The position numbers and the translations under genes are program-made. A DNA stretch of 64,000 nt from Ochotona curzoniae. Taxonomy: Eukaryota > Chordata > Mammalia > Lagomorpha > Ochotonidae. Below the pieces are notes generated by a model. That model was not told the DNA's origin and made no database searches. It was given only the letters and a program-made list of their open reading frames with translations. Below, one piece after another: positions 5,074-42,465 of the stretch (the first letter of the stretch is position 1; each line of letters opens with the position of its first letter). The DNA lies in contig NW_024467121.1 in the NCBI RefSeq assembly GCF_017591425.1, positions 20,286,707-20,350,706 on the forward strand. The letters are read 5' to 3'.

Positions 5074-5722
5074 GAAGAAATCAATAAAAAAACACTCCCA
5101 CCATTAATTAGTAACATTTGAAATTATATATTTATGACATAGGTATTACATCAGAAACATAAAACTCAATTAAAGAGCACAATAAAAATTAAAATGTACA
5201 AAAGTATTGAATACTACAAGAATTTACAATGACATGGAGGGCAAATTAACAAAAAATAGTGCTCAACATCTGTATCATAGTAAAATTAATATTATAATAG
5301 AATAACACAATAGACCTATTAGGTAGCCATTTTAAAAAATAGGACTATACCAAACATTAAGCAGCATGTGAAGAGCTGGCAGGAATTATATGACATACTC
5401 AAAACACTGATGAATCTCACACTAATTACACTGAGAGGAATAAACCTAACTTACCTTTCAGCAATTTCTTAAAAATTGAAAGACACATTATACTACCCAA
5501 ACATCTCAAAAGAAATTAAATCCTAGATCCATATATAAGTTTTATTTGCAACTATCTAAACTTGCAAATAATAGTAAATGCTCCCCCAAAGGCAAATAAA
5601 AAGATTCTATTTCCATTTAATGAAATCCTACTTAGCAATGAAAAGGAATGAAGGTCTGAAAACATGTTATAAAATGGATGATCAAGAATATTATGCTAAA
5701 CAAAGGAATCTTCATATAAAAA
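5074..5722 (+). pseudogene. Decayed L1 ORF2 3' end
   Basis: Forward-strand text matches, with many changes, the C-terminal ORF2 region of mammalian L1: a segment with TTAATGAAATCCTACTTAGC AATGAAAAGGAATGAAGG corresponds to the 'ATGCAGCCATAAAAAATGATG' block, and ATAAAATGGATGATCAAGAA to the 'GGATGAAATTGGAAACCATC' block. It is riddled with stops and encodes no protein. It is interrupted at its right end by the ~3 kb retroposon starting at 5733. Confidence 0.6.
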
Positions 5723-5732
5723 CTTTTCTACT

Positions 5733-8659
5733 GGGGGTTCAGGCCTTGGGGTGGGGGTGGGGTTGCAACTGCCGCTCCCTGCAGTGTGGTGACTGTGGGG
5801 GGTACCCCTGCTGGGTCAGACCCAATGCTGGGGCCTCATGCCAAGCCAAAGACACTGCCGCAAGGCAGTGAACGAGTCCTCAGCCTCCCCCAGGGCGGCC
5901 AGTGCACCAAGTGGTGCCAGGCTTTGTCTGCTGGCTACCCAGCAGGGCGAACTCTGGGGATTTTCAAGATATGTAGTTGCTGCCTGGGGTCACTCATGAC
6001 TAAAACTAGTTTGAGTGTAGGTGAGAAGTGAATTTTGGGGTATTCTCAGTGACAGGGTCATGAAAGATTTAAGCATGCATGGGGACCAAGACCTGGTAGT
6101 TTGGAGGGAAGTATCCAGAAGATAATTTGAGTTAGACAGATGTAACAGCTCAATTATGAATACACAGATGGGATATTAGTATAGAACATCACTGATCGCC
6201 ACACACTAGCCCACACCAAAGCTATGGACGGGGGCCTCTTTGGCAGTGTTAGGTACCATTACCCGACTGAGTGGTGGAGTTGTGGAGTGGTCACATTTGG
6301 CAGGATCAAGACACTATCCAGCACGCAAGAGAACTTGGTCTGGGGGTAGACTGTGGGGTTGTGTGGGCCCAACCCTATGGAATACAAGTCCCCATGGTTA
6401 GCTCGCAAGCAGGGGTTGCAATGGTCTAAGCTAGGTGTGACCACGCCACCTGCCATCACTCATGGGTAAAGGAACCCACAACAGTCAGGGTAGGTCAAGG
6501 CAGCAGCACCCAAATGTGCATCTTTACACAGGATGTGGGGTGGGCCGGGCTGCCACTGGAAGGGGGCAGAATGGGCAGGGCTGAACAAACCTTAACTCAC
6601 AAGAAACAACAGAAATCAGGTTGGAGCACAGCTCATGCCATGTAGGTCCCTGCACATACTCATCTGCATGAGGCAGAGGCACTAAGCCATAGCATCCAAG
6701 GGACCAGACAAGTGAGGGGCTCTACCAAGCGGAGACAGAACAACCACCGGCCTGCACCTAATCTGTGGCTGGGAACAGGCCCAGTTGGGGAAATAATGGG
6801 ACACCCTAGCTGGGTTGAGTTTCCCACCAAGGAGTTCATGGGATGGAACTGAGGCTGTATTCTGATCAGGATACGATTGTAATCTCACTTGGTGTAAGTG
6901 TGGACTGGGACTGGAAGCACCAAGCCAGGCCAGATTCCAACACCATTTGGTGCTCTGGAGGACCAGGAAGAGATGTGTGGCAGACTAGGCTAGGTCTCAG
7001 CCCTTACTGAACCTTGTGAGAGCTGTGGGGGGGGGGTATGGAAGAGCCGTGGCTGGGTTGAAATATCCAACAAGAACCAGCTTGGGTCGAAGGCCAGTCA
7101 GGAAAAGCCACTGTTCCTCCTAGGACAGGAGGTGAACTGAGTAGTGCTGGCTCATAGACCCACTGGTATGCGCAAAAACTGGCATTGGGAGAGGTTCTGA
7201 TGAAGGAGCCTGGGCAACTTCTCTGGCAGGACAGAGACCCTCCAGGTAAGTGCAAGAAGCACAATAGGGAACAACCCAGAACCAGCAATGGAAATTATCC
7301 CACTGGCATACACATGGCATGGGTTGGGGGCAGACCAGGCTGAACCTGTTCACATTATCTTCTGGTGAATCCGAGCACCAGAACAGAGTGTGGGTTGAGC
7401 CAGGTTCGGTTGCAACACATACCAGTACACAACAAGTAATGCCAAGGTGAGATGAGCCATACCAAATGTGGTTGCAGTGCCCAAACAGCACATGTGACAA
7501 TCGGGAAGGAGGCAAAGCCGACAGGGGAACATGAGCTCCCCTACTGGATAACTACTTCCATGGGAAAGGGTGAACTGGGATGGGAGCAGTTCAGACTAGG
7601 CAGGGCTATAGCACCGGTGGGCCTCACGGTGAGCTGACTGTTCCGACTGGTGCAAGTAAAAATTAGAGTGGGTTGAGGGGTGTTTGGCCTTAGCCACAGC
7701 ATTAGCTGGCAGAGGCTGGTACTGGGAGCTAATTCTGTCAAGTCAAATGCCAGAACCACCTGGAGACTGCATAATCTGGGAGTGGGTGTGGCCTAGTAGG
7801 GAAATAGTGGGCACCTCCCTCAGGGTTACCACCCTCACTGGACAGCATGAAAACCAGGATGGGGTAGGGGTGGCTAGACAGAAAGGCACCTGCCAGTAGC
7901 TGTATGGGCTGGATAACAGGTTGGTTGGGTTGAACTAGGCTTCAATCTCCATTGACATGTGCGAGAGCTAAATGGGATGTGGGACAGACTGGACAAGCCT
8001 GTGGTACATACTGGCAAGCATGGGAACCAGAGTAGGGGGCAGAACTGGTATGGGTTTTGGGGAGTCGCCCCAACTAGGCTGCAGCTCCAACTGGTTTGCA
8101 TGAAGACCGAGTATGAAGTGGGTACGATTGAGCTGGACTACAACAGCCGTTGGTTCATGAGGAAGACGGGGCTGGAAACCGAACGGACCCAGCAATCACA
8201 ACGACCAGCATATGCATAAGCTGATTGGTGTGACGAACAGTGTTGGAGTCTGTACTAGCAAACTCACGCAGGCATCAGATCTGGGATCATCTCAGATGAA
8301 GTCTCTTTGGATATCCCTCCAACTGAACTGCTGATCTTAGAGCCCCAACCATCAAGAGACTGTCAGCCAGTGGACTCTGAATAGGTTTCATTGCAGTTGG
8401 GTCGGTGAGATTGGCAGCAATCTAAAACTGATGAACTATCAAAACTGTTTGAGCAGGACCCTTGGAACGCGCCTCATGTTGGGGATCGGGGTTGGGTGGG
8501 AGGTTGGGTGAGGCTTTTCCCTTTGTTACTCCCCTAACCCCAGATATAAGGAAAAATGATTATATTAGTGTGAAAACAATATTACCCACTTTCACCCTGT
8601 AGCCCTTGACCCTTTGTATCCTAATCAACTAATATTATTAAAATTTTAAAAAAAAAAAG
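5733..8659 (+). mobile_element. ~2.9 kb non-coding composite retroposon, copy 1 (unrecognised family)
   Basis: GC-rich head (5733-5950, including CAGGGCGGCCAGTGCACC), a transitional stretch, then a body from about 6300 to 8230 of degenerate short repeats on the theme 'CATGAGAACCAGGATGGG ... GACCAGGCTGGGCTGCAAC ... CCACTGGTG', a unique 3' region (8230-8640) and a poly(A) tail. A target-site-duplication pair, CTTTTCTACT (5723-5732) and CTTTCTACT (8660-8668), brackets it. No ORF exceeds about 145 codons and none looks real. Collinear with 36353-39818. Probably mobilised by L1. I do not recognise the family; an L1-internal or satellite-derived origin is possible. Confidence 0.75.
7027..7036 (+). 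repeat. G10 homopolymer in the retroposon body
   Basis: Ten consecutive G residues; copy 2 has TATGTGGGTATGG at the matching place, so the run expanded in copy 1 only. Confidence 0.9.
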
Positions 8660-8669
8660 CTTTCTACTT

Positions 8670-13161: not shown

Positions 13162-13178
13162 AGAATCTCCAGCATCTG

Positions 13179-13515
13179 GGCCCGGCGGCATGGCCTAGCG
13201 GCTAAAAGTCCTCACCTTGAATGCACCAGGATCCCATATGGGCGCCGGTTCTAATCCTGGCAGCTCCACTTTCCATCCAGCTCCCTGCCTGTGGCCTGGG
13301 AAAGCAACTGAGGACGGCCCAAAGCTTTGGGACCCTGCACCCATGTGGGATACCCAGAAGAAGTTCCTGGATCCTGGCTTCGGATCGGCATAGCATTGGC
13401 CATTGTGCTCACTTGGGGAGTGAATTATCGGATGGAAGATCTTCCTCTCTGTCTCTCCTCCTCTCTGTATATCTAACTTTGTGATAAAAAAAAAAATAAA
13501 TAAATCTTAAATAAA
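13179..13515 (+). mobile_element. Young CSINE with 17-bp target-site duplication
   Basis: GGCCCGGCGGCATGGCCTAG head, B-box GGTTCTAATCC, full body and AATAAATAAATCTTAAATAA tail. AGAATCTCCAGCATCTG (13162-13178) returns as AGAATCTCCGGCATCTG (13516-13532), one mismatch. A recent insertion. Confidence 0.95.
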
Positions 13516-16310: not shown

Positions 16311-17535
16311 AAGTTTGCCTTATTTTTAATAGTTACCTGGGATATTGCTAAATAAAGGAAAATAAACTCGGAGGACTTATTTGGTCACAAGGATTTGGGA
16401 GCCTATAATTAACTCCAAGCATCACAATTTTTCTGTCTTCAGAAACAGACCCTTATGGATACTTAGGAAGAGAACTCAAGAAATAAATGCAACCATAGGG
16501 AAGTGAGACAAAGAAGGGAAATGAGGCCAGGTCCAGTGCCTTGGAGGAGGAGGGGGGTATTCACTTTCTGAAATCCATCTCACACTTCACTGTCTGCACC
16601 TACTAGATGGGCTGGTTGTGTAAAGCAAGACCTGGAGTTGTCAAGACAACCATGGTGAAGGGCATTTCTCTTCTGCTGCTTCTCTACCTAGACCTAGGCA
16701 ATGGAAGACTTCAGGTCATTCTCCCAGAATAGGACAGTATAATCACCTGTATACTCTCATTCAAGACACCTCTCTATCAGTCCAAACACATGGGTCCCCC
16801 CTCTGTCCTTCCTTAAGTTAATGATAATGAGAAAAATGTGGGGAAAACCTTTAAAACCTCAGGCAATTTACCCTAAAGCCAGTGTCCAGTTGGATACTCC
16901 ACTTTCCTACATCTTCTTAGGGCAGTTCTTTCCTGTCCCTTTGCTTCAAAAAAGATTGTTATGCTTGCACGTGCTTTCTGGCTTTCTATTCCTATCCTAA
17001 GCTGAGGAAAGAACCCACTGAACCTCACTGGTAATAGGAAAGAGGCAGGAAATGAATCACAATCAGGACAGTTGCCACTGAAGATGCAGTGCACAAAAAG
17101 CTTGTGTTTTCCTGTGTACACTCTCATTCTATGATGAATCCAGAAGCACTCCAGGGCCATTAAGTCTACAGCATTTCCAAGCCAGAATAAAGCTCCCATG
17201 CCAGAAAAATGTCTTCAAGCAGAGACATTTTCCCCAGTAAACAATCCTTGATGTACACAGTAACAGTCAAGGAGTTAAGTATGACACCAACTGAAATATA
17301 CTATCCCAACACATTAAGGCCACTATGTTCTTCCAGGTGGTAACCACCTGACATGTAAAATAAAAACAGCTTGCAGTGGAAGTGCTGGTGAGACAAACCA
17401 CAATGATTTTCCTGTGGCTCACATCAAAGACAACTGATGATCATTCCCCCACCATCACTAAAGATTCAAGGTCTACTCTAGTTTTTTACACTCTAATATA
17501 TTAGCTATGAGAAATCAGTGAAAACATTTGTCTTT
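16311..17535. other. Unique DNA
   Basis: No coding signal, RNA gene or repeat family identified. A 108-codon minus-strand frame at 16873-17199 has no recognisable family. A G-rich patch GGAGGAGGAGGGGGGTAT lies near 16543-16560. Confidence 0.4.
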
Positions 17536-17539
17536 CAGA

Positions 17540-18600
17540 GAGCAGCTTATTTCACTCAGCATAAAGGCTTTATATTTGGTTCATTTTTTGGTAAAAGACT
17601 GGGTTTTATTCTTTATAGCTGAGTAATTTTCCATCATATTTACATACCTTGTTTTCTTTAGCTATTAATCATTTGGTGAGTATCTAGTTTGATTCCAAAT
17701 CTTGTAAACTGAACTGCTGTGGACATAAGGGTACAAATAACTTCTGTATATATTCCATATGGTGATTTTATTTGCTTTAGATAAATTCCTAGGAGTAGGA
17801 TGTTTGAATAAAATGGTAGATGTTCCAACTTGCTAACTTCTACTTCACAGATTTCTGACGAAATCTCATAGCATCTTCCACAGTGTTTGTACTAGTTTAC
17901 ATTCTTACCTACAGTGTTTTAGAGTGACTTATTTCCTCACATCCTTGCCAGATTTTATTATTACTTCATTTTTATTTTTGGATGATAGCCATTGTAACTG
18001 GTGGTGATGTGAAACTTCACAGTGATTTTTATTGGCATTTTCTTGATGGCTAATGATACTGATTATATTTAAGTATCTATTTCCATTTGTATATCATCCT
18101 TTTCTTAACAGAACTGTTTGTATGTTGAGCTTCTTAAGCTCCCTATATCTTCTGAATATTAATTCAGTTGCATAGGTGGCTAATACTATGTCCCATCCTG
18201 TTGGATGCTTCTTTGCTTGTTGAGTGTTTCCTTTGCTGTGAAGAAGCTTTTTAGCTTGATGTACTTCCATTTGTTCATTTTATTTTACCTGCTTCTGTTT
18301 CTGGAGTCTTAGTCTCTGCCCGGGCCAATGTCTTGTGGTGTTTCCCCTATGTATTCCTCTCTAATTTGATGCTTTCAGATCTGAGTAGTGATTGTTGATC
18401 CATGTTCCTTTTTGTCTAAGGTGTAAGGGAGGGGTCTTGTTTCAGACTTCTGTACACAAAGATCCAATTTTCCCAACACCATCTGTTAAAAAGATATTGT
18501 TTCTTCTTGGAGATTTTAGATCATTTGTCAAAAATTAGTTGGCTGTATGTGAATGGATGCCTTATAGCACCTTAGTATTTGTGTGTAATCAAATACCCTA
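17540..18600 (-). pseudogene. Decayed L1 ORF2, reverse strand
   Basis: Plus-strand text is the reverse complement of ORF2: TAGCTGAGTAATTTTCCATC, GGTACAAATAACTTCTGTAT, TAGATAAATTCCTAGGAGTA, CTTCCACAGTGTTTGTACTA, GATAGCCATTGTAACTGGTG, TGCTGTGAAGAAGCTTTTTA, CAATTTTCCCAACACCATCT. The order matches L1 read from near the ORF2 stop backwards for about 1.05 kb. No intact reading frame. Together with 15465-16310 it places two unrelated old L1 pieces back to back within 3 kb. Confidence 0.88.
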
Positions 18601-24828: not shown

Positions 24829-25028
24829 TTTTTTTATGTTAAATATATTTATTCTTTTTTTAATTGTTATTAACATTGTATTATGTGATACAGTTTTATA
24901 GGCACTGGGGATACACCCCACCCCACCCACAACCCTCCCCTCATAGTGGATTCCTCCACCTTGATGCATAACCACAGTTCAATTTCAGTTGAGATTCCTT
25001 CATTGCAAGCATATACCTAGCATAAAGT
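24829..25028 (-). mobile_element. Young L1 3' end with perfect 15-bp target-site duplication
   Basis: T-rich left end (the poly(A) in reverse), then CATTGTATTATGTGATACAG and a C-rich tract CACCCCACCCCACCCAC, which is the reverse complement of the G-rich L1 3' UTR tract. It is the same sequence, reversed, as 32060-32281. GAGGACACATCTTCT occurs at 24814-24828 and 25029-25043. Only about 200 bp of the 3' UTR was copied. Low divergence from the other copy indicates recent L1 activity. Confidence 0.9.
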
Positions 25029-25218: not shown

Positions 25219-25700
25219 GTTATGGTTTGGATACACTTTGAGTGTGTCCCCTAAATGTTAATGTGCTAGAAGCTCAGCTCCCCACAAGATGGTACTGAGT
25301 GCGAAATGAGACTGAATTGGGACTGGCACCATGGCATAGTAGGCTGTCTCCACCTGCAGTACTGGCATCCCACAGTGGCACTGATTTATGTCCCAGCTTC
25401 TCCACTGCTGTCCAGCTCCCTGCTATGGCCTGGAAAAGCAATGGAGGGCGGCTCCACTTCCCATCCAGCTCCCTGCTTGTGGCCTGGGAAAGCAGTCGAG
25501 GATGGCCCAATGCTTTGGGACCCTGCACCCATGTGGGAGAACCAGAAGAGGTTCCTAGTTCCCAGCTTCAGATCGGCGCAGCACTGGCTGTTGCGGTCAC
25601 TTGGGGAGTGAATCATCAGACAGAAGATCTTCCTCTCTGTCTCTCCTCCTCTCTGTATATCTGACTTCGCAATAAAAATAAATAAATCTTAAAAAAAAAC
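25219..25700 (+). mobile_element. Composite insertion: LTR-like 5' part joined to a mosaic CSINE
   Basis: ATAACTTGTG (25209-25218) and ATAACTTCTG (25701-25710) bracket the block and match adjacent Tigger sequence, so it interrupts the transposon. It starts with MaLR/MST-like LTR text (TATGGTTTGGATACACT, GTGTCCCCTAAATGTTAATG; 25219-25316), followed by a SINE whose first ~130 bp is of the old subfamily (CACCATGGCATAGTAGGCTG, CTGGCATCCCACAG) and whose remainder from about 25452 is of the young one, with about 50 bp of the middle present twice (CAGCTCCCTGCTATGG, then CAGCTCCCTGCTTGTGG). Confidence 0.65.
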
Positions 25701-25926
25701 AATAACTTCTGAAAACAACATTGATGATTCTGTCATCGTACAAACATCACAAGTTGACTTACACAAACTCAAACTGCATAGCCTGACATATACCTCGGCT
25801 CTATGGCATATCCAACTAATCCTGTAGTACATGCCTATATGACATGTTACTGTACTGAGCACAGAAGGTGACTGTAATACAATGTTAAGTATTTGTGAAT
25901 ATTTCTACACACAGCAAAGTTACTCA

Positions 25927-31868: not shown

Positions 31869-32281
31869 CACCTCAATTGTTGAAATGTCAATGGAGTAGT
31901 CACAGGATATGGTTAAGAATTTGCATTATTTTAATATATTGTTTACTCAATACTATGTCAATTAATACCATAACATTGTATATTGTTGCTGATGTTATGT
32001 AGGGGCTTTTGATTGATCGGGTTTTTACTCTGTTGGCTCTACCTTCAGACCAGAGAAGGTCTCCCCAAGAAGCCGCTGAACTTATCTGGACAATAAGATG
32101 CTGGGCTCTATGCTTGGTATATGCTTACAATGAAGGAATCTCAACTGAACTTGAACTGGGGTCACGCAGCAAGGTAGAGGAATCCACCAAGGGGGAGGGT
32201 TATGGGAGGGGTGGGGGGAATTCCAGTACCTATAAAACTGTGTCACATAATACAATGTTATTAATAATAATGATAAAAAAA
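31869..32281 (+). mobile_element. Young L1 3' end with perfect 17-bp target-site duplication
   Basis: 5'-truncated copy of about 413 bp of L1 3' sequence with CAACTGAACTTGAACTGGGG, the G-rich tract GGGGGAGGGTTATGGGAGGG and the terminal AATACAATGTTATTAATAAT, then poly(A). AGAAAATGGCAGCAACC occurs at 31852-31868 and again at 32282-32298. Same family as 24829-25028 on the other strand. Confidence 0.92.
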
Positions 32282-32454
32282 AGAAAATGGCAGCAACCAA
32301 GATGCAGCAAATGAGCAATTTCTTTCAGGCAAGCCATGTTTCTTAAGATAGTTATCTTACTATTCCAATTGCCTCAGTCCACTTCCTTTCAATACAATAC
32401 ATACTGGGTACTTTTCAAAGAAAAGAAGCTAATTTAGCTGACCATTTAAGAAGA

Positions 32455-35479: not shown

Positions 35480-35585
35480 TATCTAAAATGTAAAATGGCT
35501 CATGTCATTCCCCTGCTTTATCTCACGATAAAATTCCAAATCCCTCAGCAACAGAAAGACCACAAAAGTTTTAACCAGCACAGGT
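35480..35585 (+). mobile_element. L2 fragment
   Basis: CATGTCATTCCCCTGCTTTA and GATAAAATTCCAAATCCCTC match the L2 'CATGTCACTCCCCTGCTTAA ... GATAAAATCCAAACTCCTTA' zone closely. Forward orientation; ends where the L1 remnant begins. Confidence 0.75.
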
Positions 35586-35589
35586 CTTG

Positions 35590-36335
35590 AGAGACATTTT
35601 TCCAAAAAAGACATACAAATAGCAAATAAACAAATAAGATATTCAACATTTCTACTCCCTAGAGAAATTCAAACTATAAGAACACACACAATGAGACACC
35701 ACTGCACACTCATTAGGATAGATGTTATTTTAAAATAACCCACAGAAAATTAAGAGCATTGGCAAAGATGTGAAGAAATTGGAATATCTATGAAATAGGA
35801 ACATGAAATGGACAGCCACTATGGAAAACAAAAGTTAAAAAAGTTGCATTGACTTTTCATAGACATAGTCCAACACTTCCATTTCAGTATGTATTCCAAA
35901 GAACTGAGAGCAGGAACTCAGATTTTGTACATTAGTGTTCACAAAAACACAATTTGCAAGAACCAAAAGGTATATACAACTCAAAACAACCATCTACTAA
36001 TGAATGAGTGTGCTACTAGCATGCAGCTACTGCATCACTTGGGGTTACAAAGGAAAATTTTAATGCCTGTTACTATACAGATTACATGGATAAAACTTAA
36101 GCACATACAAAATAAATCAAAATCAAATAGGAAAAAAAAATGTGTGATTCTTATGAGTGTCTAGAGAAGTGAAATCCAGAGAGACATAGTAACTGGAGAA
36201 GTGGAAATAAGGAGTTGATGTTTGATGGGAGGAGTTTCAGCTTTGATGATGAAAAGTTCTGAAGATAGCTAGTAGTAATGGCTGTAGAATAATGTGAGTA
36301 TACTTAGTGCCAGTGAAATGTATATTTCAAATAAT
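35590..36335 (+). pseudogene. Decayed L1 ORF2 3' end and 3' UTR, host of retroposon copy 2
   Basis: AAAAAAGACATACAAATAGC, AATTCAAACTATAAGAACAC, GAGACACCACTGCACACTCA, CCACTATGGAAAACAAAAG, GAATGAGTGTGCTACTAGCA and GATTACATGGATAAAACTT follow the L1 ORF2 end in order; 36170-36335 is 3' UTR-like. The L1 resumes after the retroposon at 39836-39865 with CATACACTTTACCATAATTA AAAAC. No intact frame. Confidence 0.78.
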
Positions 36336-36352
36336 GAAAAGGAGTAATTTAG

Positions 36353-39300
36353 TAGGTGCCAGGCTGGAATCGTCTCCATGCTCGGAGCCCCAATTCCAGC
36401 CACTGCGTCCACCAGGTGACCTTTCCCTGGGCAGCCAGTGCGCCATTCGGCGCAGGCTCTGCCTGATGGCCGCCCGGCAGCCTGCTCTGGGGTTTTGGGC
36501 TCTGAATTGTTGCTTAGGTATCTGCATGTCAAGCCCACTGTATTTCTGGGATGTCAATCAATCCTAAAGAATTCCAATGACAGAGTAACTTTTCCTTTGA
36601 AAGTTAGCAAGGGTAACAAGACGTAGTAGGTTGGAGGAGAGGGACCTGATGATTTTTATGGATAAGACTGATATACTAAACCCCTTTAAATACTGTGTAG
36701 TACTTGTAGTCACTGAACACCAGTCCATGCAAAAGCTAAGGCTCGGGGCTTGTCCAGCAGGATCATTTTATTACCTGACATGTTGATGGATCAGGAAACG
36801 GGTCATATTTGGCAGGGCCATGAAATTAAGTAGCACACAGATTTTGTGGGAGATGTGTGGGCCAAACCCTGTGGAAATACTAGTCCTACTGGTTAGCTCA
36901 AGAGTTGAAGGAATGATGGACTAAACTAGGTGTGACCAAGGAGCCTGCCATCACTCACAGGTAAAGGAACTGACAACAGTCTGGACTGGTCAAGGCAGCA
37001 CCCAAATGTGCATCCTGAATAGGGTGTGGGGTGGGCCGGGCTTCAACTTTTTCCAGCTCATACAAGGCCAATAGGAAGATAGAATATGCCGGACACTGGC
37101 CTAAAACCCAATGGAATGTATGAGAATTGGGTCCGGGAGTGGGTCAAGTAGAAGAACGTGGGAAACTCCCCTGGCGAGTCATAGCTCCTGCTGGTGAACA
37201 CACAGTCCAGATCTAGGGGTTGGACAAGCTAGGCAAAGTAGCTCCAATGGCTGGCTAATGTGTGGACTGGCAATGGAATAGGGTGTACCAGGCAGAACTG
37301 AGCAAACCTTAGCCCATAAGCAAAACTAGAAATCAGGATGGAGGGCCCAACACCGTGGCCTAGTGGCTAAAGTCCTTGCCTTGAAAGCGCCAGGATCCCA
37401 TGTGGGTGCCAGTTCTGGTCCTGGCAGCTCCACTTCCCATCCAGCTCCCTGCTTGTGGCCTGGGAAAACAGTCGAGGACGGCCCAAAGCTTTGGGACCCT
37501 GCACCCATGTGGGAGACCCAGAGGAGGTTCCTGGTTCCCGGCTTCGGATTGGCATAGCATCGCCGTTGTGCTCACTTGGGGAGTGAATCATCGGACGGAA
37601 GATCTTTCTCACCATCTCTCCTCCTCTCTCTTTATCTGACTTTCCAATAAAAATAAATCTTACAAAAAAAAAAAAAAAAGAAAAAGAAACCAGGATGGAG
37701 CACAGGTCATGCTGAGCTAGGCTCTTGCACCTAATGGTCTGCGGGAGCCAGGGACGCTAAGCCACAGTGTGTAAGGCAAGGGCCAGTACAGGTGAGGGGC
37801 TGAGCCAAGCTGAGTCAGAGCAACCACTGGCATTCATGTGATCTATGGCTGGGAACAGGCCTGGTTGGGGACCTAAGGGGACACCCTATCTGGGTGGAGG
37901 TTCCCACCGAGGAGCACAGGGCTAGAATGGGGGCTGCTTCTGATCAGGATATGGTTTAGTCTCACTTAGCACAAGTGTGGACTGGGACTGGACACACCAA
38001 GCCGGGCTAGATTCCAACACCCTCTGGTCCTGGAGGACCAGGGTAGATGTGGGACAGACATCTACTGAGTCATGTGTGAGCTGTATGTGGGTATGGACGA
38101 GCCGTGGCTGCGCTGAAACATCCAACAACAAGAACCAGTTTGGGTTGAAGGCCAGTCAGGAAAAGCCACTGTTCCTGCTAGGACAGGAGGTGAATTGAGT
38201 AGGACTGGCTCATGGATGTCCTGGTATGCTCAAAATCTGACATTGGGAAAGGTTCTGATAAAGAAGCCTGTGCAACACCTCTGGTAGGACACAGACCCGG
38301 CAGGCAAGCGCAAGAAGCATGATAGGAAACAGCCCAGAACAGGCCATGGAAAGTTTCACACTGGCATACATTTGGCATGGTTTGGGGCAGACCAGACTGA
38401 ACCAGGTCTCATCACCCACTGGTGAATCCGAACACCAGAACAGAGTGTGGATCAAGCCAGGTTCAGTTGCGACAAAAACAGTGCCCATTACAGAATGCCA
38501 AGGTGAGGCTGCCTGTACCAGAGGTGACTGCAGCACCCAACAGCACACATGAGAACCAGGAAGGGAGGGGGCAGAGCCAGCAGGGGGAACATGGGGGAGT
38601 TCCCCTGCTGGACAGCTACTCCCACTGGAGAGCGTGGGCTGGGATAGGAGCCGACCAGACTAAGCAGGGCTACAACACCTGTGGGCCTCATGTGCACTAG
38701 ATTAGGGAAAAGCCAGGCTGAGCTGACTCTTCCTACTGGTGCAAGCATAAATCAGAGTGGGTAAGGGTTGGTTGGGCTTTGCCACAGCATCAGCTGGCAG
38801 AAGCTGGCATTGGGGGCTTATTCTGTCAAGTTAAACTGCAGAACCACCTGGAGAGTGCATGACCCAGGAGTGGGAGTGGCCTAGAAGGGAAATAGTGGGA
38901 TCCTCCCTCTTGGGTTACCACTCCCACTGGAGGGCACGAAAACTAGGACAGGGACAAGGGTGGCTAGTCAGAAAGGCACCCAACAGCATGTGTGTGGGCT
39001 GGATAGTGGAGCTAGGTGGGTTGAACTAGGCTTCAATGCCCATTGACATGTATGAGAGCTGAATGGGATGTGGGACAAACTGGACTAGTCTGCTGCACAT
39101 AATGGCAAACCAGGATAGGGGGTGGGCCTGGTGAGATTATTGTGGGTCGCTCCAAGTAGGCTGCAGCTCCCATTGATTTGTGTGATGGCCGAGTGTGTGC
39201 TAGGCAGAACCAGGATGGATTGCAACGCCTGTGGAAGACAGAGCTGGAAACAGAACTGATCCAACAATTGCAACCACCAGCTGACTGGGGCAATGGACTG

Positions 39301-39818
39301 TGCCGGGTCCTGTACTTGTTAGTACTTACAAGAACCTGGTCTGGGAACACCTCAGACAAAGTTTCTTTAGGGATCCCCTCCATCGAACTGCCAGACTCAG
39401 AACCCTAACTATGAAAAGAGAGAGAATAGAACAAGTCAATCAACTACCCCAGCTATATGTTGGCAGTGAAAAACTAGGCAAATGGAGACTCTATGATGGA
39501 CTATGTCAATTAGTGGATTCTTCAATGACCTCATCATGCTTAGAATGGCGAGACTAGCAGCAATTTATAACTGTTGAACTATCAAAACCACTTGAGCAAG
39601 ACCCTCAGAGCATGCCCGACATCAGGGACCTGGGATTGGTGGGAAACTGGGTGGGGCTTCTCCCTTAAAATCCCCTCTTTACCTCAGATACATGAAGGAA
39701 GCAATGTGGAAATGATAGTCTTACCCATTTTCCTATAGCCCTTGAACCTTTTTGCCCTAATTAACTATGTAAAGATTGTCCAAAATATAATTTAAAAAAA
39801 TGGAAAAAGAAAAAAATA
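36353..39818 (+). mobile_element. ~3.1 kb composite retroposon, copy 2 (3.47 kb with nested CSINE)
   Basis: Collinear with copy 1 (5733-8659): head CTGGGCAGCCAGTGCGCC, then GTGTGGGCCAAACCCTGTGG, GGTGTGGGGTGGGCCGGGCT, GGACTGGGACTGGACACACC, GCACGAAAACTAGGACAGGG, GGATGTGGGACAAACTGGAC, GTTGAACTATCAAAACC and the 3' end TATAGCCCTTGAACCTTTTT, then an A-rich tail. GAAAAGGAGTAATTTAG (36336-36352) and GAAAAGGAGCAATTTGG (39819-39835) are its target-site duplication. About 250 bp after the head (36500-36780) does not align obviously with copy 1. No long ORF. Family not recognised. Confidence 0.82.
37344..37684 (+). mobile_element. Young CSINE nested in retroposon copy 2
   Basis: Full-length young C-repeat (head GGCCCAACACCGTGGCCTAG, GCCAGGATCCCATGTGGGTG, ATCGGACGGAAGATC, poly(A) to 37684). 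AGAAATCAGGATGGAG (37328-37343) is repeated as AGAAACCAGGATGGAG (37685-37700). Copy 1 of the retroposon has no SINE at the matching site (about 6610), so this insertion came after the retroposon landed. Confidence 0.95.
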
Positions 39819-39889
39819 GAAAAGGAGCAATTTGGTGTTGCATACACTTTACCATAATTAAAAACAAACAGAAATCCTGAACCCTGAGA

Positions 39890-40100: not shown

Positions 40101-41764
40101 CTGTGGTAGTTACTAGCTAGATGTTCACCAGATTGTTTCCTCCTCTACCTGGGCATATTGACATCTCCAGGCACACCTAACCTATGGGTTGTATCTTCTC
40201 ATTTTCCCTTGCAGTTAGATGTGTGAAGTGGTGATGGAGAAAAAAAAATCCCAAGGATTACTTAAAAATTTGCTGTCTTTTCTGAAGAGAAAACCATGGT
40301 GCAAAAAATGATGATGACTGTCTTTCTGCATCTTTAGCTGCTAGAGCTGGCTCACATTTTGGAGGCTGGAGAATCCAACAGCCACTGCACCAGTGTCTAC
40401 TTGACAACTGCTGAGGGTTATTGTGCTGGATTCTGACAGGGCAGAGGGCACTGCATGTGAGACTGAGCAAAGCAGGTGCACTAGCTCAGATCTCTCCTCT
40501 TACAAAGCCACTAGGTGCCACCGGGACTTATCATCATGATTTCATCCAACATGATGACCTCCAGAAGGGCATACCAAATACTTTTCCTTTGGGGAGACAT
40601 AAATAACGACACTGACCACAGGATGGACTTGCTAAAACCTGAGGAACAGCAAGTTTAAAGGGGCTGAGGTCCAGGAAGCACTACATGGGAAATCATCAAC
40701 TGACAGGCAATATTCATTCTGGATTCTACATGAGAAGAAGACATTTATATATGTGAGGGTGTTCCCACTGTGATCAAAATAATTTGTCTTGTTCTAACTA
40801 AGCCAAACTTCACAGAGTATCTCTTTCCACCTATATCAAACTGTTGTTCTTGTCATTATTCCCCAACTTTCTTCATAATTTGTGATTTATTCATCCATGT
40901 TGATATACTAATACTCATGTATTTCATGTATTTCTTCCTATATAAGGCAACCTTCTTTGATATGCAAACTATATGTTGTGGTTTCACTGTATCCCATCCC
41001 TACCATGAGCTTAATATAAATTCAACAACCATTTCCATTTTAAAAAGTCTGAATTTTAGCCCAGTTAGTTATCAGAGGTGCTTGCCCATTTTGTTAGAGT
41101 CTTTCCCTGATGGTCTTAGAACTATCTGAAACCTGTAAATTATTATTGCTGACCTGTTTAACAATTGTTTTACAATGCTGCAGTGAATGATATAATTAAT
41201 GTCAGTGTCCTCCTAGACGGAATTTCTCCAGGGAATATTTGCAACCTAGCCTAGACCAGGTAGTAGATTACCCAAATAATGGATGGCTGGATGGGTCAAT
41301 CAATGAACAAGTGAGAGTATGTGTCAAGGAAAGGATCTGAGACTGATACTATTCAAATCCGAGTGCAGAGTGTGGCTCTGGCAAAGACTGCTCTGTTCTT
41401 CATCTCAACAAGTGTCATGAGTCACCACACTCCAGGGATATCATCCAGCTTGGAAAGCGTTCTGGTCAGGAAGCAGAGATGGACTCAACAGCTCATTAAG
41501 TCCCCAGAACACTGTGCACGCTACCAAGTGAACTTCTCAACCTCGACTCTCCAATGGAAAGAATATGGGATTTGGAGTAAACAAAACTAAAACACAATGT
41601 TGGCTTTATGTCATTTTTTTAAAGCTGGAAATAACAAATAGACAACATTGCTCAATATCTATGTTGTCTAAGTCCAATACCATTAGCCTGTCACATGCAA
41701 CTATGCAGAACTTGAATGGTGGCTCAATTAAATCTGGATGTGCCATAAATATTAAACATACATA
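40101..41764. other. Unique DNA; possible old L1 trace
   Basis: TACAATGCTGCAGTGAATGA near 41172 resembles old L1 in reverse, but neighbouring text does not confirm it. Nothing coding seen. Confidence 0.4.
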
Positions 41765-42060: not shown

Positions 42061-42087
42061 AAAAAGTACCTTTCGGGCCCGGCATGG

Positions 42088-42098
42088 TGGCCTAGTGG
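42088..42098 (+). promoter_or_regulatory. Pol III A box of the CSINE
   Basis: TGGCCTAGTGG fits the tRNA A-box consensus TRGCNNAGYGG. It is paired with the B box 55 bp downstream (start to start), as in tRNA genes. Confidence 0.8.
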
Positions 42099-42142
42099 CT
42101 AAAGTCCTCACCTCAAACCCACCAGGATCCCATATGGGCGCC

Positions 42143-42153
42143 GGTTCTAATCC
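42143..42153 (+). promoter_or_regulatory. Pol III B box of the CSINE
   Basis: GGTTCTAATCC differs from the GGTTCGAANCC consensus by G to T at position 6. The same TCTAATCC form recurs in the other young CSINEs here, so the subfamily carries this variant. Confidence 0.8.
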
Positions 42154-42465
42154 CGGCAGCTCCACTTCCCATCCAGCTCCCTGCTTGTGGCCATGGAAAG
42201 CAGCTGAGGATGGTTCAAAGCCTTGGGACCCTGCACCCACATGGGAGATCCAAAAGAGGCTCCAGGCTCCTGGCTTTGGATTGGCTCAGCTCCAGTCACT
42301 TGGGGAGTGAGTCATCAGACAAAAGATCTTCTTTTGTCTCTCCTCCTCTCTGTATATCTGACTTTCCAATTAAATACATACATACATCTTTTTAAAAAGT
42401 ATTTTTCAGATATATTAAATGAGATATATATTTTACTCATTTTCACCTTCTGAAAAATAGGGCTT

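Follow-up and report, generated by a model that had tools for sequence, protein, structure and literature searches.

Two segments lying 28 kb apart on the same strand of the 64-kb stretch of pika DNA analysed here (the window) are probably dead copies of one LINE-1-mobilised, non-autonomous and non-coding retroposon with a VNTR-like centre. Wherever we speak of a family below, the term refers to two copies, both in this window (Table 1). A literature search, which reached few subscription papers, brought up no description that we recognised as this element.

Homology and insertion marks of the two copies

The two segments, 5733-8658 (copy 1) and 36354-39818 (copy 2), are collinear homologues with 73.6% identity over the 2708 sites compared in a full head-to-tail alignment, the head, body and tail being 63%, 80% and 66% identical, respectively. 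BLAST aligned them in blocks at 6352-6557/36845-37048 (79%), 6608-8359/37682-39419 (74.7%) and 8404-8631/39547-39767 (70%), and direct comparison of head with head and tail with tail gave local scores of 169 and 193, where the maxima of 200 shuffles were 38 and 37. No third copy was found, as a two-copy profile search returned no other significant match in the 64-kb window. The initial annotation had described the two segments as collinear homologues, and the BLAST blocks, the full alignment and the scores of heads and tails above shuffles all agree with it; its boundaries were accurate to 1 base, except that copy 2 starts at 36354 and not at 36353.

Table 1. Coordinates of the two copies, their segments and their insertion marks
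Feature	Position	Strand	Remark
Retroposon copy 1	5733..8648	+	collinear with copy 2
Copy 1 head	5733..6498	+	399/636 compared sites identical to copy 2; outside array
Copy 1 body, degenerate tandem array	6499..8216	+	1314/1650 sites identical to copy 2
Copy 1 tail, 3' segment	8217..8648	+	280/422 sites identical to copy 2
G-quadruplex-type motif, copy 1 tail	8481-8500	+	G4 scan
A tail, copy 1	8649..8658	+	continues into right TSD; read in sequence
Left TSD, copy 1, AAAAACTTTTCTACT	5718..5732	+	13/15 bases match 8654-8668; ends exactly at element start
Right TSD, copy 1, AAAAAGCTTTCTACT	8654..8668	+	
Retroposon copy 2, SINE-interrupted	36354..39790	+	collinear with copy 1
Copy 2-only block, ~226 bp	37045..37270	+	alignment gap
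Later SINE nested in copy 2	37344..37685 (about)	+	own TSD 37329-37343 / 37686-37700
G-quadruplex-type motif, copy 2 tail	39625..39651	+	aligned with 8481-8500
A-rich tail, copy 2	39791..39818	+	read in sequence
Left TSD, copy 2, GAAAAGGAGTAATTTAGT	36336..36353	+	16/18 bases match 39819-39836; ends exactly at 5' boundary
Right TSD, copy 2, GAAAAGGAGCAATTTGGT	39819..39836	+	

Each copy is bracketed by a target-site duplication (TSD) and closes with an A-rich tail. Among 2000 random 30-mers of the window, 1.25% for copy 1 and 0.2% for copy 2 matched the right flank as well as the left TSD does, figures that are partly circular in that the boundaries were chosen with the TSDs in view. The target sites, read directly and without statistics, are AT/AAAA and AT/GAAA; both lie near the TT/AAAA-like consensus of the L1 endonuclease. 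When copy 2 was excised together with one copy of its target site, the joined flanks gave one alignment, running through the junction, with what we take to be the 3' end of an L1MA-type element, at a score of 165 (shuffle maximum 41); the left flank alone scored 136 and the right flank alone 32, barely above its shuffles (28). Judged from these alignments, copy 2 is a clean insertion into an L1MA-type 3' end, because the joined flanks restore that end uninterrupted. The joined flanks of copy 1 scored 24 against the same 3' end, and the independent proof of insertion is for copy 2 only.

Decayed L1 ORF2 remnants were detected by tblastn at 17527-18556 (minus strand) and 35577-35783 (plus strand), and the second of these has copy 2 inserted into its 3' end. 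Upstream of copy 1, 5172-5391 weakly matches the L1 region 35555-35787 and is probably an old L1 fragment that tblastn missed.

The flanks also bear on the idea that a single segmental duplication of one ancestral segment produced the pair, which we regard as highly improbable. It would suit the shared strand, the distance of 28 kb and a weak match between the left flanks (score 83; the best of 30 shuffles reached 79). However, that match stands ~340 bp from copy 1 but ~570 bp from copy 2, and near copy 2 it overlaps the L1 ORF2 remnant; for these reasons we take it to be a pair of old L1 fragments. Between the right flanks there is no match (48, shuffle maximum 54), and as a main explanation segmental duplication is refuted by the different TSDs and flanks. 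Given the different TSDs and flanks and the L1MA-type 3' end that copy 2 has split, the sequence identifies the two copies as separate insertions of the same element. Matching flanks, which the initial annotation had named as the observation that would speak for segmental duplication, were looked for and not seen. Its other claims about insertion, namely TSDs at both ends (15 bp with 13 matches and 18 bp with 16), A-rich tails (8649-8658 and 39791-39818) and a LINE-1-type signature around a non-coding sequence, are borne out by these marks and by the two independent insertions.

Head, array and tail

The beginning of the head is GC-rich, as claimed earlier, with 63% GC over the first 250 alignment columns, and is also richer in CpG, the ratio inferred for the ancestor being 0.72 in these columns and 0.30 in the body. 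At the other end, the tails carry aligned G-quadruplex-type motifs, and four of the five plus-strand motifs of this kind in the 64 kb fall within the two copies. The copy 1 tail also contains ATTAAA at 8637-8642 (read directly), and the sense strand of the copies has a purine excess of 0.56.

In the body, units with a core of ~45 nt form a degenerate tandem array, all matches being on the sense strand. Profile iteration started from each 70-bp tile gathered up to 30 unit matches at E<=0.01, drawn from both copies, whereas 12 controls that kept the homology between the copies gave 5-10; the mean number of matches per seed was 16.5 versus 2.9-4.3 in the controls. The final model, which was trained on the bodies of these two copies, matched 14 units in copy 1 (6878-8159) and 17 in copy 2 at E<=0.5, or 8 and 10 at E<=0.01, and had no match elsewhere in the window at E<=0.5. 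In copy 1, unit starts are spaced 52-194 nt apart. The 226-bp block found only in copy 2 contains one strong unit (37099-37137, E 0.003) and weak ones at 37180-37216 (E 0.08) and 37251-37276 (E 0.48), a pattern with which expansion in copy 2 and deletion in copy 1 would agree equally.

Other searches hardly register the array. For copy 1, Tandem Repeats Finder reported a single two-copy match of 22 bp, and for copy 2 nothing, a search for ungapped repeats turned up next to nothing, and a strict single-copy profile search from copy 1 recovered the seed itself and no repeats. In an offset test, copy 1 gave 84 windows, within the range of its shuffles (47 +/- 26, maximum 117), and copy 2 gave 81 (37 +/- 15, maximum 77). 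The profile test also looked strong against shuffles that break the homology between the copies, a control that is unfair. The short-repeat body proposed earlier is thus upheld by the two-copy profile, while Tandem Repeats Finder, the offset test and the single-copy search were negative or weak.

Both copies are without recognisable coding sequence. The longest stop-to-stop frames are antisense and reach 143 and 149 codons, equal to the means of 500 shuffles (145 and 147), in line with the earlier statement that there is no long ORF, and across nine gap-free blocks the mismatches between the copies were not three-base periodic. In Pfam, the six frames of copy 1 had no match at E<=1, and nine translations of copy 2, with its head covered in the three plus frames only, had one sub-threshold match (E 0.13, 12.8 bits, cut-off 24.4). 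A search for proteins related to the antisense frame yielded 45 candidates, none of them at E<=0.001. A 34-residue stretch is 71% identical between the two antisense frames, which are no longer than expected by chance; as a trace of coding this likeness was rejected, as it follows from the homology of the DNA. Rfam yielded no structured RNA at gathering score in the window and none at E<=1 in 5733-8659.

The divergence between the copies is uneven: the K2P distance is 0.53 in the head, 0.24 in the body and 0.48 in the tail (chi-square 81 over the three segments). Decay of CpG was rejected as the sole cause, since transversions differ too (about 0.20 per site in the head, 0.08 in the body and 0.11 in the tail), and part of the head alignment may be wrong. 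Such unevenness is not predicted by simple decay of two copies from one source and counts against our reading. Even decay would be expected of copies made from a single master, so the sources probably differed already at their ends, or exchanged modules, or were constrained in the body.

Age, mechanism and alternative explanations

Copy 2 was later interrupted by a SINE, whose own TSD is 15 bp long with 14 matching bases and whose empty site is kept in copy 1 at 6612-6626. With the nested SINE as query, BLAST gave 18 rows in the window, including the query itself. A tRNA-type SINE family of ~300 bp is spread across the window, for example at 13178-13494, 25447-25705 and 42075-42374, and ARAGORN called no tRNA in the window. 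The nested SINE and this family resemble what we take to be the lagomorph CSINE. CSINE3_OP is listed among young pika families, and CSINE2 is placed in pika and all Leporidae by a printed reviewer comment, both in the accessible part of one paper (PMC3183009).

The K2P distance between copy 1 and copy 2 is 0.334 overall, and among 14 SINE copies of the window it has a median of 0.316 and a range of 0.092-0.578. Because the divergence of the copies is about that between SINEs, the element is, as far as these distances can tell, not young but roughly as old as the SINEs of the window. The suggestion that it might be pika-specific finds no support in these values. The best reading is that both copies are old and dead and that the element is extinct.

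The window also contains two short retroposons that are ~85% alike and have a G-rich tract and an A tail, at 24848-25027 (minus sense; perfect 15-bp TSD GAGGACACATCTTCT) and 32106-32286 (plus sense). They look like strongly 5'-truncated ends of an L1 of the lineage. An inverted pair of ~190 bp, 72% alike, lies at 41288-41475 and 43393-43194.

The copies could belong to a lagomorph L1 derivative, made of a tandem-repeat 5' UTR and an L1 3' end with the ORFs deleted, or to a repeat already named in Repbase or Dfam, and we consider this unlikely. The GC-rich head, the G-rich tract before the A tail and the sense purine excess of 0.56 are L1-like traits, and a repeat frequent enough to occur twice in 64 kb would probably have been noticed by annotators, the pika annotation being called high by a reviewer quoted in the accessible part of PMC3183009. 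However, the frames scanned hold no L1 protein remnant, and tblastn with L1 ORF2 found no match inside the copies. The tails showed no likeness beyond chance to the L1-like 3' ends at 24848-25027 and 32106-32286, which represent one type of L1 3' end only: in the four comparisons 12.7-46.7% of 300 shuffles scored as high.

Quite unlikely, too, is an origin without any transposon family, in which the transcript of one repeat-rich lncRNA gene was copied at least twice by L1. Processed retrocopies of that kind would leave the same TSD, A tail and lack of an ORF, a source gene with a constrained middle could fit a body better conserved than the ends, and two copies with none further in the window fit as well. 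On the other hand, a low-copy pseudogene would hardly be expected to occur twice, at ~3 kb each, within 64 kb, although the window was picked for having two copies, and both copies are almost complete, their starts lying just ~73 columns apart. A collinear array common to both copies would probably be unusual among lncRNA retrocopies.

If, as we think probable, the copies descend from a non-autonomous retroposon, its source element would have begun at the 5' end with a GC-rich head, continued with a degenerate array and closed with a 3' end of its own that carried a G-rich tract and poly(A). Target-primed reverse transcription of the LINE-1 type would then have inserted copies of the source RNA at two separate A-rich sites, LINE-1 presumably being the enzyme responsible. 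The head may have carried the promoter, the array may have aided mobilisation as the LAVA central domain does, and further copies would be expected to exist. A narrower proposal, which we offer tentatively, is that the element was a VNTR composite retrotransposon of independent lagomorph origin that LINE-1 amplified in trans, its ends diverging between subfamilies while the array stayed alike.

Comparison with known retroposons

If the family is real, an SVA-type design would not be a peculiarity of apes, and the element, with its conserved array between diverged ends, would offer a way to test whether non-autonomous retroposons exchange modules. If the element is an independent lagomorph composite, the SVA/LAVA design would have arisen on two or more occasions, and at a far earlier date in this case. 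With such an independent case to compare, one could ask which parts, the GC-rich head, the array or the G-rich 3' tract, are required for borrowing LINE-1, since features arising twice likely matter. That the SVA design originated twice is possible but unproven; if the element proves to be a lagomorph repeat that already has a name, or a piece of L1, the finding would become ordinary annotation.

An LTR retrotransposon or ERV was rejected in view of TSDs of 15 and 18 bp, A tails, no terminal direct repeat in self-comparison and no Pfam domain. The 5' UTRs of mouse L1s consist of GC-rich tandem monomers and are non-coding, and the pika element is likewise GC-rich, tandem-repeated and without coding capacity. 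The difference from an L1 5' UTR is that a non-repeat head several hundred bp long precedes the array here, and that the element's own 3' end and A tail come after it with no intervening ORFs. HAL1 and other non-autonomous L1 derivatives share the L1-type insertion marks and a long body with the pika element, but HAL1 retains ORF1, whereas the pika copies have no Pfam domain. HAL1 names are given for guinea pig in the accessible part of PMC3183009.

The closest likeness in layout is to SVA, LAVA, PVA and FVA, which the available part of one paper describes as non-autonomous VNTR composites mobilised by L1 in trans (PMC4432496). The pika element resembles them in being non-coding and in having a distinct 5' domain, a central array, a distinct 3' domain, an A tail and TSDs. 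The same part of that paper defines VNTR composites by a common CT-hexamer/Alu-like 5' region and as specific to hominoid primates (PMC4432496), and this region is missing from the pika element: no CT hexamers were seen by reading at 5733-5800 or 36354-36420, and Rfam matched nothing, SRP/Alu-type families included, either across the window at gathering score or within 5733-8659 at E<=1. The SVA array is described there as GC-rich repeats of 30-50 bp (PMC4432496), while the pika array, with its ~45-nt core and spacing of 52-194 nt in copy 1, is far more degenerate, and the 3' end of the pika element is, as far as known, unrelated to those of SVA, LAVA, PVA and FVA. The SVA/LAVA-like layout with a different sequence that the initial annotation had pointed to is therefore found again in the GC-rich head, the repeat body and the element's own 3' end. 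Because the CT-hexamer/Alu-like 5' domain is absent, the pika element resembles SVA and LAVA in layout and is not a member of that group.
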